From Bacillus sp. V5-8f (GTDB lineage: Bacteria; Bacillota; Bacilli; Bacillales; DSM-1321): a DNA stretch of 64,000 nucleotides. Below, in pieces: positions 1-5,343 of the stretch (position 1 is the stretch's first letter; every line of letters begins with the position of its first letter). Under the pieces are notes generated by a model. That model made no database searches. It saw only the letters and a list, made by a program, of their open reading frames with translations, and was not told where the DNA came from. A program made the translations under genes and the position numbers. The DNA is taken from the NCBI RefSeq assembly GCF_002863565.1, contig NZ_PGUW01000017.1, forward strand, positions 1 through 64,000. Direction: 5' to 3'.

Positions 1-450
1 GATCAATCAGAAGAACCGCCAGCCACTCCGGGCGAAGGAAATGTACCGGGACCGAAAGTAGAAACCCCAACAGGTGATCAATCAGAAGAACCGCCAGCCA
101 CTCCGGGCGAAGGAAATGTACCGGGATCGGAAGGAGAAACCCCAACAGGTGAACAACCAGAAGAACCGCCAGCCACTCCGGGCGAAGGAAATGTATCGGG
201 ACCGGAAGGAGAAACCCCAACAGGTGAACAACCAGAAGAACCGCCAGCCACTCCGGGCGAAGGAAATGTACCGGGACCGGCAGTAGAAACCCCAACAGGT
301 GAACAACCAGAAGAACCGCCAGCCACTCCGGGCGAAGGAAATGTACCGGGATCGGAAGGAGAAACCCCAACAGGTAAACAACCAGAAGAACCGCCGGCCA
401 CTCCGGGTGAAGGAAATCCACCAGGACCGGAAGCAGCACCTCCAACAGGT
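1..450 (+). repeat. 75-bp tandem repeat, six copies, in coding sequence
   Basis: Six in-phase copies start at bases 1, 76, 151, 226, 301 and 376, with a diverged seventh from 451. Each is exactly 25 codons, so copy-number change keeps the frame. Copies differ at only a few positions (for example AAAGTA, GGAGAA or GCAGTA near the end of the unit), which points to recent expansion by slippage or recombination. Confidence 0.95.
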
Positions 451-885
451 GAACAACCAGAAGAATCGCCAACCGCTCCGAGTGAAGGAAGTGCACCGGG
501 ATTGGAAGAGGGGAGTGAGACAGGAACAGAAGAGGAAGTCCCAACAAGTGAACAGCCGACAGAAACCCCAGCAAACAGGGAAGAGGAAACAGTATCGGAC
601 ACGACAGATAGCCAGTCGAATGATAATTCAGTGGGTGAACCTCCTTCTCAGTCAGATAAAGAAGAAACAAACTCCGATTCCGAAAATGGTGCATCAACAG
701 GTAACCAGAGTGAGAATGCTTCGTCTGAATCAAGTGAAAAAGAGGCAGATTCCAATTCTGAAAGTAGTGAAGCGACAGGTAGCCAAAATGATAATACTTC
801 ATCTTTTTCAAATAAAACACAGGTTGCGCATTTTAGAAATAACTATAACGTCAAGGTGACAATTGGGTCTAAAATAGATGACTGA
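1..885 (+). CDS. Repeat-rich secreted protein, 5' truncated, in the tapA position of a sipW-tasA locus
   Basis: The reading frame is open from base 1, so the N-terminus lies outside the window. The first ~150 residues are six near-identical 25-residue repeats (EEPPATPGEGN core followed by ETPTG), then a degenerate seventh, then a Ser/Asn/Glu-rich tail ending in a short non-repetitive segment (VAHFRNNYNVKVTIG). The composition, Pro/Gly/Thr/Glu with no Cys or Trp, suggests an extended extracellular stalk. The stop overlaps the start of the SipW-like peptidase by 8 bases, so the two are translationally coupled. In Bacillus subtilis the gene before sipW is tapA, whose product also has a low-complexity acidic tail. 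I infer a matrix-fibre accessory or surface protein; the diagnostic N-terminal domain is not visible. Confidence 0.75.
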   Translation, partial: DQSEEPPATPGEGNVPGPKVETPTGDQSEEPPATPGEGNVPGSEGETPTGEQPEEPPATPGEGNVSGPEGETPTGEQPEEPPATPGEGNVPGPAVETPTGEQPEEPPATPGEGNVPGSEGETPTGKQPEEPPATPGEGNPPGPEAAPPTGEQPEESPTAPSEGSAPGLEEGSETGTEEEVPTSEQPTETPANREEETVSDTTDSQSNDNSVGEPPSQSDKEETNSDSENGASTGNQSENASSESSEKEADSNSESSEATGSQNDNTSSFSNKTQVAHFRNNYNVKVTIGSKIDD

Positions 886-1493: not shown

Positions 1494-1526
1494 AAAAAAA
1501 GGTGAGAAGATTTTCTCACCTTTTTA
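1494..1526. terminator. Rho-independent terminator between sipW and the tasA-like gene
   Basis: A perfect 8-bp stem (GGTGAGAA/TTCTCACC, 1501-1520) with a GATT loop is followed by TTTTT and preceded by a run of A, so it could act on both strands. It should lower read-through from sipW into the tasA-like gene. Confidence 0.85.
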
Positions 1527-1653: not shown

Positions 1654-2625
1654 GTGAGTTCTAAATATAAAATTACGAAAGGAATCATCTTTCTCATTAG
1701 TGGCTTTATATTATTAATTTCGGCTGTTATTCCTCAAGGTACATGGTCCCTTTTTAATGACATTGAAACGAAAGGGCACACATTAGCGGTGGGAAAATGC
1801 AATATTGTGGTCTTTTCGGATTTTGATATTGATAACGTAATGCCAATGCAGGTTGAAGAAAGAATATTGACTATAGCGAACAGCGGGTCTTTACCAGTAA
1901 ATAAAGTTTATTTGCATACGAAGTTAAAATTTACAGATGGCACGGATAATAAGCTCAATCCTAAAAATGGAACCACAGCAGAAGAGTTTACTGAACAGTT
2001 CGAAGTAAAATTTCGATTAGATGATGCATATGTAAAAAACGAAGATGGAAGCTTCTTCAAATTGACACTTGCTGAATTAGAGAAAAAGCCACTTAACATT
2101 GCTTCGTGGCTTCCAGGGGGCAAATTGAATGTATCTGAGGGGATTGATCTAGAAATTGAAATTTCTTTTATATCTCAATCAGTAAATAAACATAGAAATG
2201 AAATAAACAATGAAGGGCAATTTCAGGATGATTCTTTATCTGTTGATTTTGATATAGAAGGGATTTGTGGTGGAGGCGACGGTGATGATGACAAGAACGA
2301 TGACGAACCAAAACAATGGGATAAAAGTTCATTAAAATTCATTGACCAAGGTCGTGAGGGTAATGCAATATATGCTGATGTAAAAAATGGGGGCTCAGGA
2401 ATGGGTGGCCCTGTAAAATATGAAGTATACTGGGTTGCACAGGGTAATCCTAAAGGAGGGGAAATTGTAGCAACTGGTACAGTTCCTACTCTAGGTTCCG
2501 GCCAAACATATAAGATTATGTATAATCCAAAAAAATCTGGAACCTATATGATTAAAGCATACCAGCGTCCGGGTCATCGTGGTACAGGGGAATTGTGGAG
2601 TGGAGAAATTAATTTTCCAAAATGA
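1654..2625 (+). CDS. TasA/camelysin-family matrix protein with TapA-like C-terminal domain
   Basis: About 323 residues. An N-terminal hydrophobic segment (residues ~10-26) is followed by GTWSLFNDIET, the hallmark of SipW-processed TasA/CalY (camelysin) exports. The middle (~30-200) is the TasA-like beta domain. An acidic Gly/Asp linker (~204-219) leads into a ~100-residue domain (QWDKSSLKFIDQ ... GTYMIKAYQRPGH ... LWSGEINF). From memory this resembles the folded core of TapA (RWDQSDLHISDQ ... GIYAFKVYKPAGY ... WSEPMRL). The protein therefore looks like a TasA-TapA composite that could both form and anchor or nucleate fibres. AGGTGAT at 1643-1649 sits 4 bases before GTG 1654, so I prefer this start to GTG 1645. 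Confidence 0.85.
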   Translation: MSSKYKITKGIIFLISGFILLISAVIPQGTWSLFNDIETKGHTLAVGKCNIVVFSDFDIDNVMPMQVEERILTIANSGSLPVNKVYLHTKLKFTDGTDNKLNPKNGTTAEEFTEQFEVKFRLDDAYVKNEDGSFFKLTLAELEKKPLNIASWLPGGKLNVSEGIDLEIEISFISQSVNKHRNEINNEGQFQDDSLSVDFDIEGICGGGDGDDDKNDDEPKQWDKSSLKFIDQGREGNAIYADVKNGGSGMGGPVKYEVYWVAQGNPKGGEIVATGTVPTLGSGQTYKIMYNPKKSGTYMIKAYQRPGHRGTGELWSGEINFPK

Positions 2626-4371: not shown

Positions 4372-5343
4372 ATGTCTCAATCACAACAACAGATGCAACA
4401 AAGAGCACAACAACTAGGGATGCAAGCAGGTGGATTTGGTATGCAGAGCGGAATGTCTGGAGCATTTGGCGGCCCCGTTCAATCTATCACTCAGCCAGGA
4501 TTTGCAGGAACCAGCCCTCAGCAAGTAAGACAAGATATTCAGCGTGACTTGCAATATGGTTCTCTCCAGCAGCAAGGTGGTTTCGGCAGTCAGGCTGGAA
4601 TGCAAGCTGGCGGTTTGGGAATGCAAACAGGTATGACAGGCGGATACAGTTCACAGCAAATGGGCGGTCCTTTACAAGCGGTCATGCAGCCAGGATTTGC
4701 AGGAACAAACCCTCAGCAAGTAAGGCAAGATATCCAACGAGATTTACAATATGGGTCTAGCCAACAGCAAGGCGGCTTCGGGATGCAAGCGGGATCGACA
4801 GGAGGATATGGTTCACAGCAAATGGGCGATTCGATACAATCAGTCATGCAGCCAGGATTTGCTGGAACAAACCCTCAGCAAGTAAGACAAGATATCCAAC
4901 GAGATTTACAATATGGTTCTAGCCAGCAGCAAGGCGGCTTCGGCATGCAGTCAGCTGGAATGCAAGCAGGTGGATTTGGTATGCAGAGCGGAATGTCTGG
5001 CGCATTTGGCGGCCCCGTTCAATCTATCACTCAGCCAGGATTTGCAGGAACGGATTCTCAGCAGGTAAGACAGGATATCCAACGCGACCTGCAATATGGT
5101 TCTAGCCAGCAGCAAGGGGGCTTTGGCATGCAATCAGCAGGAATGCAAGTTGGCGGTTTTGGCAGTCAGGCCGGAATGACAAACGGATATAGTTCACAGC
5201 AAGTGGGCGGCCCCGTTCAATCTATCATGCAGCCAGGATTTGCAGGAACGGATGCCCAGCAGGTAATACAGGAAATTCAAGCAGCTACCGAACAAGCTGG
5301 CCAAACAGGATTTACAAATGGAATTCAAGGTGGTCTTCAATAA
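4372..5343 (+). CDS. Large Gln/Gly/Met/Ser repeat protein, gamma-type SASP-like
   Basis: A 323-residue low-complexity protein. Five copies of a block, QPGFAGT(N/D/S)xQQVRQDIQ, are separated by GGFGMQ/GSQAGMQ-rich linkers. The block resembles the FASETNAQQVRKQNQQ unit of gamma-type SASP (SspE), and the linkers resemble its GQGQFG spacers. SspE has two or three units and fewer than 100 residues, so this would be an expanded form. The acidic residue before the GPR cut site (E-F-A) is Gly here, so GPR processing is uncertain. The fifth block has diverged (QQVIQEIQAATEQ). ATG 4372 sits 7 bases after AAGGAGG; the upstream in-frame ATG 4306 lacks a site. Roles as a spore amino-acid store or spore coat protein are both possible. 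Confidence 0.7.
   Translation: MSQSQQQMQQRAQQLGMQAGGFGMQSGMSGAFGGPVQSITQPGFAGTSPQQVRQDIQRDLQYGSLQQQGGFGSQAGMQAGGLGMQTGMTGGYSSQQMGGPLQAVMQPGFAGTNPQQVRQDIQRDLQYGSSQQQGGFGMQAGSTGGYGSQQMGDSIQSVMQPGFAGTNPQQVRQDIQRDLQYGSSQQQGGFGMQSAGMQAGGFGMQSGMSGAFGGPVQSITQPGFAGTDSQQVRQDIQRDLQYGSSQQQGGFGMQSAGMQVGGFGSQAGMTNGYSSQQVGGPVQSIMQPGFAGTDAQQVIQEIQAATEQAGQTGFTNGIQGGLQ

Follow-up and report, generated by a model that had tools for sequence, protein, structure and literature searches.

A TasA-type fibre protein joined to a TapA-like folded core in one predicted secreted chain of Bacillus sp. V5-8f

TasA and TapA of Bacillus subtilis are two separate proteins, and an earlier note on this DNA, made from the sequence alone, had proposed that a single gene joins them into one chain that both polymerises and nucleates or anchors a matrix fibre. 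The locus raises the question whether such a fusion is real and, if so, what its TapA part would add to a fibre subunit. The window that we analysed covers the first 64 kb of contig 9, which belongs to a draft genome of 4.43 Mb, and the gene in question is an uninterrupted ORF (Table 1). GTG 1645 is its start in the output of the ORF lister; we consider GTG 1654 the likelier start since AGGTGAT (1643-1649) lies four bases before it.

Table 1. Features of the fusion locus (positions in the window)
Feature	Position	Strand	Basis or remark
CapP/DUF4047-like secreted protein, 3' part	1..885	+	weak DUF4047 match of the contig 3 part; relatives
sipW2, SipW-type signal peptidase I, 191 aa	878..1453	+	TIGR02228 141.6 bits (cut-off 51.85); NF046067 173.7 (cut-off 190)
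13-bp hairpin, 3' arm ending in a T run	1496..1525	+	-16.5 kcal/mol, z -4.73
TasA-TapA fusion gene	1654..2625	+	probable GTG start, 323 aa; both families matched
SipW-type signal peptide, residues 1-32	1654..1749	+	TIGR04088; predicted site by alignment
TasA/camelysin domain, residues 33-205	1750..2268	+	LFNDIE donor-strand motif at start; C49, C205
Acidic Gly/Asp linker, residues 206-221	2269..2316	+	sequence
TapA-type Ig core, residues 222-323	2317..2625	+	TIGR04087, non-fusion core profile, AlphaFold2

Both halves of the protein were recognised by family profiles. A SipW-type signal was found over residues 19-48 (TIGR04088, 21.0 bits, cut-off 19) and a TasA/camelysin domain over residues 24-203 (PF12389, 49.5 bits, cut-off 22.5), bearing out the signal and layout that had been read in the N-terminal part, and the acidic hinge described between the two halves is present. 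The search of the C-terminal domain against the TapA family, which the earlier note had suggested, gave a match of residues 215-319 to positions 65-176 of the 186 in TIGR04087 (E 4.3e-20). Its score of 72.1 bits lies below the curated equivalog cut-off of 80 bits; among the other two fusions described below, the Schinkia azotoformans copy exceeds this value (83.1 bits) and the other copy does not (70.0), so such fusions may be filed in databases as plain TapA. The TasA equivalog NF046066 (cut-off 450) was not reached by the fusion, at 39.5 bits, and the TasA of Schinkia itself scores 194.8 bits. Of the motifs that had suggested TapA, WDxSxLxFxDQ (222-232) and WSxE (315-318) occur as written, while GxYxxKxYxPxG is only approximate: residues 296-307 read GTYMIKAYQRPG, with P one position off.

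As a control, we used profiles of 46 TapA cores and 67 TasA-type proteins from which the three fusions and the rows of a further TasA-TapA protein (L109, see below) were excluded. The C-terminal domain scored 128.5 bits and the N-terminal domain 55.6, compared with best scores of 9.5 and 13.7, respectively, for 1000 shuffled sequences each against the matching profile; against the other domain's profile, the two gave -3.0 and 0.6 bits. These shuffle controls, together with two full-length homologues, rule out a chance resemblance of the halves. We also rejected an unrelated Ig/CARDB domain at the C terminus, given that CARDB reached 14.3 bits (cut-off 22.7) and the TapA match was far stronger. 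When a profile of the three fusions was compared with solved structures, its N-terminal part found TasA (8aur, E 3.7e-6) and its C-terminal part TapA (6qay, E 7.2e-6; 8aif, 8.1e-5), and the five chains with E <=1 were every one TasA or TapA. The single fusion protein matched TapA 6qay weakly (E 0.0045), and the C-terminal domain by itself was not decisive, with TapA chains at E 0.083, 0.16 and 0.56 and an amylopullulanase chain between them at 0.11. AlphaFold2 folded the TapA-type core into seven strands (pLDDT 78.9); the full-chain model was weak (61.5, and about 34 for the first 20 residues), and two structure comparisons had no TapA entry among the 50 matches listed. Taken together, these results confirm, at the level of sequence, that one predicted secreted chain joins a TasA-type domain to the folded core of TapA, which are normally two proteins. 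The original observation was right and is firmer than had been claimed.

Residue W222, with which the TapA part begins, is the aligned counterpart of W74 at the beginning of the folded core of TapA. The part of B. subtilis TapA that promotes assembly is reported to be residues 44-57, and a strain secreting only these residues formed a proper biofilm (PMC10151520). Since it begins at the W74 equivalent, the fused part does not contain this segment; directly before the core, where TapA has its N-terminal donor segment, the fusion has the TasA domain instead, and the profile match starts at position 65. The proposal that the TapA part nucleates fibres is not supported, for the equivalent of residues 44-57 is absent from it. 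The sole donor strand of the fusion is its TasA-type N terminus, which would be freed by cleavage before L33, as judged from the alignment with B. subtilis TasA. In B. subtilis, a TasA subunit gives its N-terminal strand to the next subunit (PMC9674648), and TasA F29, P62 and F200 have reported roles in the subunit interface (PMC10151520); the alignment places F34, P64 and F172 of the fusion as their retained equivalents. The C-terminal segment of TasA, described as becoming ordered in the fibre (PMC9674648, PMC10151520), is absent and the linker begins in its place. With the TasA-type donor strand and groove kept and the TapA strand missing, the chain should be able to polymerise like TasA, and the TapA part would contribute the role of the Ig core rather than nucleation.

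The fusion protein of the window has two cysteines, C49 and C205, which align with TasA L44 and Q232, respectively. In an alignment of 73 TasA-type proteins, the first position holds Cys in three of the 72 proteins with a residue there, and the second in three of 46 (the other 27 rows being gapped); in both cases the three are the fusions. Gln occupies the Q232 position in 40 of these 46 proteins, and Q232 is reported to belong to the most conserved subunit contact (PMC10151520). It is plausible from the alignment that a C49-C205 disulfide pins the donor-strand linker, and it may lock the subunit. AlphaFold2 modelled the stretches around the two cysteines at pLDDT of about 33 and 42 and could not position one against the other. 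An equivalence with C58 and C68 of TapA was dropped: the spacing counted from the donor-strand Phe is as in TasA (15), unlike that in TapA (13).

Full-length homologues with 47-48% identity occur in S. azotoformans LMG 9581 (G209, contig33) and in a congener (G096, same genus code). Matches of some kind were found in 141 of the 397 genomes of the order, and the full-length fusion in three, namely these two and the window genome; this corresponds to two of seven genomes in the family of S. azotoformans, two of the four with the Schinkia genus code and one of 36 in the window's own genus. The single chain, in place of the two B. subtilis proteins, is indeed a different design, as had been suggested, and a rare one. 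No further full-length fusion was among the matches listed for 398 genomes drawn from the class, and no relatives were found in a viral-contig scan or in a genome-contig scan with the single protein as query. Titles and abstract openings of the open-licence PMC literature that we searched gave no description of TasA and TapA in one chain. Between the window fusion and the other two, the TapA core is 57-60% conserved and the TasA domain 38-42%, which argues for constraint on the appended domain. In a tree of 64 rows (L109 excluded, two fusion rows having unusual composition), the three fusions group by their TasA halves in one clade (support 100/99). The tree of 50 TapA cores was poorly resolved, joining the three fusions in 2% of bootstrap trees, and its resolution is insufficient to name the source subfamily of the fused core.

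The order CapP-like gene, sipW and fusion gene is kept in the three genomes, with the fusion gene downstream of sipW, unlike the upstream gene position of TapA. In both Schinkia-genus genomes the locus runs sipW1, tasA, a sortase-type wall protein, a coiled, Pro-rich repeat protein, sipW2 and the fusion; S. azotoformans has a third sipW between the last two, and its wall protein carries an LPxTATN signal (47.2 bits, cut-off 32). The same genes are split in the window genome across contigs 3 and 9. The 5' part of the repeat protein lies at the end of contig 3, whose final bases, GATCAATC, recur as the window's first eight; this end (L087 8953-9945) probably holds the 5' part of the window's CapP-like ORF. 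About 6.7 copies of a 75-base repeat lie at the window's end of the gap (window 4-508) and probably caused the assembly to break here. The sipW1 and tasA genes of contig 3 are broken, their frames being split (L087 6326-7400); the wall-protein counterpart is open (L087 7926-8552) and gave no match to a sorting signal. The hairpin between sipW2 and the fusion gene is a possible terminator or attenuator, none being listed there by the consensus terminator scan, and its strength suggests that the two genes may be transcribed unevenly. A scan with a SinR-box motif was uninformative, because the motif occurred in 103 of 111 loci and, within L001, was not found ahead of the fusion gene.

Judging from its relatives, the repeat protein is probably a member of the CapP/DUF4047 group. 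With the DUF4047 profile (PF13256, cut-off 22.1), the contig 3 part of the copy in the window genome scored 14.9 bits, and neither Schinkia-genus copy had a listed match. A search with a profile built from all three gave matches in 26 of the 397 genomes, the three query genomes included; of 12 distant loci, ten were scanned, and five exceeded the DUF4047 cut-off while the other five show no DUF4047. CapP of B. cereus (BC1280) is reported to be a chaperone-like factor for TasA/CalY filaments (PMC13082335). The fusion loci would be similar to that system in pairing a probable DUF4047-type repeat protein with TasA-type proteins processed by SipW, and differ from it in that B. cereus is reported to be without TapA; the consulted sections on that system make no mention of a fusion (PMC13082335).

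A full TapA encoded elsewhere, with the domain studied here belonging to an unrelated family, had been named as one outcome that would overturn the fusion. A second tapA does exist: contig 11 of the window genome carries a canonical cluster of tapA, sipW and a camelysin-like gene, its tapA interrupted by an in-frame TAG in the signal region (L045 2841-2843) that could be either a genuine lesion or an error of assembly. For its part, the fused domain matches the TapA family rather than an unrelated one. Behind the interrupted tapA, the sipW and camelysin-like genes look open. In the two Schinkia-genus draft genomes, we found no TapA core besides the fusion, the only other TapA-profile match of S. 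azotoformans (E 0.009, profile 5-72) lying at its TasA; in both, an open tasA stands 3-4 kb upstream of the fusion.

The TapA core occurs in SipW-type TapA proteins, in secreted proteins of non-SipW type and in sortase-tailed proteins, and its motifs WDKSSL, N245, GNPKxG, Q304 and GHPGxGELWS are mostly common to these groups. Among 68 non-redundant TapA-core ORFs, taken from part of all TapA-core matches, a tail motif indicates sortase-type tails in about ten, and PF00746 was above its cut-off in both of the sortase-tailed proteins checked (n=2). These proteins (L008, L017, L029, L101 and others) share with the fusion the same Ig core without an adjoining TapA donor strand; unlike the fusion, they have a wall anchor and not a TasA domain. 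One, a 550-aa LPKTG wall protein of G176 (L017 679-2331 (-), the same as L052 16005-17657 (-)), has three tandem cores. In G139, an ORF of 474 aa (L068 5104-6528 (+)) combines TapA and SipW in a single frame, with the TapA core at 87-170 and the signal peptidase at 293-449.

A TasA domain is present in four of the 68 ORFs, which are the three C-terminal fusions and a protein of G430, a genome of another order (L109 1084-2181 (-)); three others have weak TasA-profile matches in the signal and donor region. The G430 protein likewise unites TasA with a TapA core in a single chain; unlike in the fusion, where the core is appended, its core (residues 120-228) sits between two TasA halves (1-101 and 241-365), with PF12389 at 68 bits in two stretches. 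This architecture was found in one of 15 genomes of its order. From the difference between the two arrangements, a TasA-type subunit would have acquired a core on at least two occasions. Inspection by eye places a TasA gene and a sipW-like end upstream of the G430 gene, and a protein of LPxTA type downstream of it.

Considering the above, we favour, with about even confidence, a reading of the fusion as a donor-strand fibre subunit of TasA type that displays a C-terminally appended TapA Ig core. The chain would be exported, and the neighbouring SipW2 would trim it; the N-terminal strand thereby released (LFNDIE...) would enter the next TasA-type domain at its open sandwich, as happens in TasA fibres. 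The appended TapA core is complete in itself and should accept no strand; it would hang from each incorporated subunit on the flexible Gly/Asp linker and might bind a partner such as the wall, a polysaccharide, a second fibre or the CapP-like product of the neighbouring gene. Of the two roles first proposed for the TapA part, anchoring would fit better than nucleation, since the same core is found in proteins with sortase-type tails, and its spread across protein groups would be more in keeping with a binding module than with an assembly factor. The change of the interface Gln to Cys in the three fusions, the loss of the C-terminal TasA segment, the weak full-chain model and the rarity of the architecture weigh against display. 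A bolder version, in which a cysteine-locked fibre is decorated with TapA cores and the core is a transferable module that reached its hosts by at least two routes (appended and inserted) as well as entering wall proteins, is tentative and, as a whole, rather unlikely. If it is true, the core of B. subtilis TapA, dispensable for biofilm in the published assay, would be a binder with a ligand yet to be found.

One may instead suppose that the fusion serves these bacteria as their TapA. It would then be a minor component at the base of the fibre, acting as starter or anchor: its N-terminal strand would seed the first TasA, its TapA core would hold it at the cell surface and its TasA domain would be a built-in first subunit. 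This would agree with its being the only TapA core found in the Schinkia-genus drafts, with an open tasA close upstream, and with the near identity of the donor starts of TapA (AFHDI) and TasA (AFNDI) reported in PMC10151520. We nevertheless consider it unlikely, although it deserves attention: a natural starter would not be expected to need a strand before it can extend its own, as a TasA domain does (PMC9674648), the gene lies on the other side of sipW from tapA, the CapP-like protein of the same locus could do the seeding, and the window genome still has its canonical tapA, albeit TAG-interrupted.

The cysteine pair that may pin the donor-strand linker in the preferred reading could also prevent polymerisation. 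The fusion might act as an adhesin, secreted or on the surface, or as a cap terminating fibres, with the putative disulfide and the loss of the interface Gln leaving it monomeric or able to join at one end. The three fusions alone, among the aligned TasA-type proteins with a residue there, have lost the Q232 equivalent and gained two Cys, and the C-terminal TasA tail has gone as well; yet the donor-strand start and the interface P and F are kept, and a conserved FND strand start would be needless without polymerisation, so that we regard this as improbable. Ordinary domain shuffling, giving a protein without a specific role and heading for loss, would account for the rarity of the fusion in the order, the genus and Schinkia, and for the broken sipW1 and tasA on contig 3. 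It is the least probable of these explanations and a very unlikely one, as the core, the ORF and the synteny are conserved between families at the identity given above.

Compared with known proteins, the fusion resembles TasA/camelysin (CalY) of Bacillus (PF12389; 8aur, 5of1/5of2) in its SipW-type signal, FNDI donor strand, beta-sandwich and residues equivalent to F29, P62 and F200; unlike TasA, it has Cys for the interface Gln, a second Cys at the L44 position and an extra C-terminal Ig core in place of the C-terminal tail. With TapA (YqxM; TIGR04087; 6qay, 6hqc, 8aif) it shares the Ig core, the WDKSSL start equivalent to W74 and the GxYxxKxY and WS motifs. Unlike TapA, it has no donor segment before the core and no acidic tail, its gene is downstream of sipW and its core is attached to a TasA domain. 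Since the N-terminal strand alone gives a normal B. subtilis biofilm, the purpose of the conserved TapA Ig core is a question in itself, and a natural protein that attaches the core, without the TapA strand, to a fibre subunit keeps the two functions apart and opens this question to testing. Adhesive pili carry display domains, and the fusion suggests that donor-strand fibres of Gram-positive bacteria can bear them too.

Elsewhere in the window, the ORF at 4372-5343 encodes a Gln/Gly-rich protein with repeated QPGFAGTxxQQVRQDIQRDLQYG units (periods of 162 and 183 bases); it matched no Pfam family above cut-off, and we take it to resemble an expanded gamma-type spore protein.
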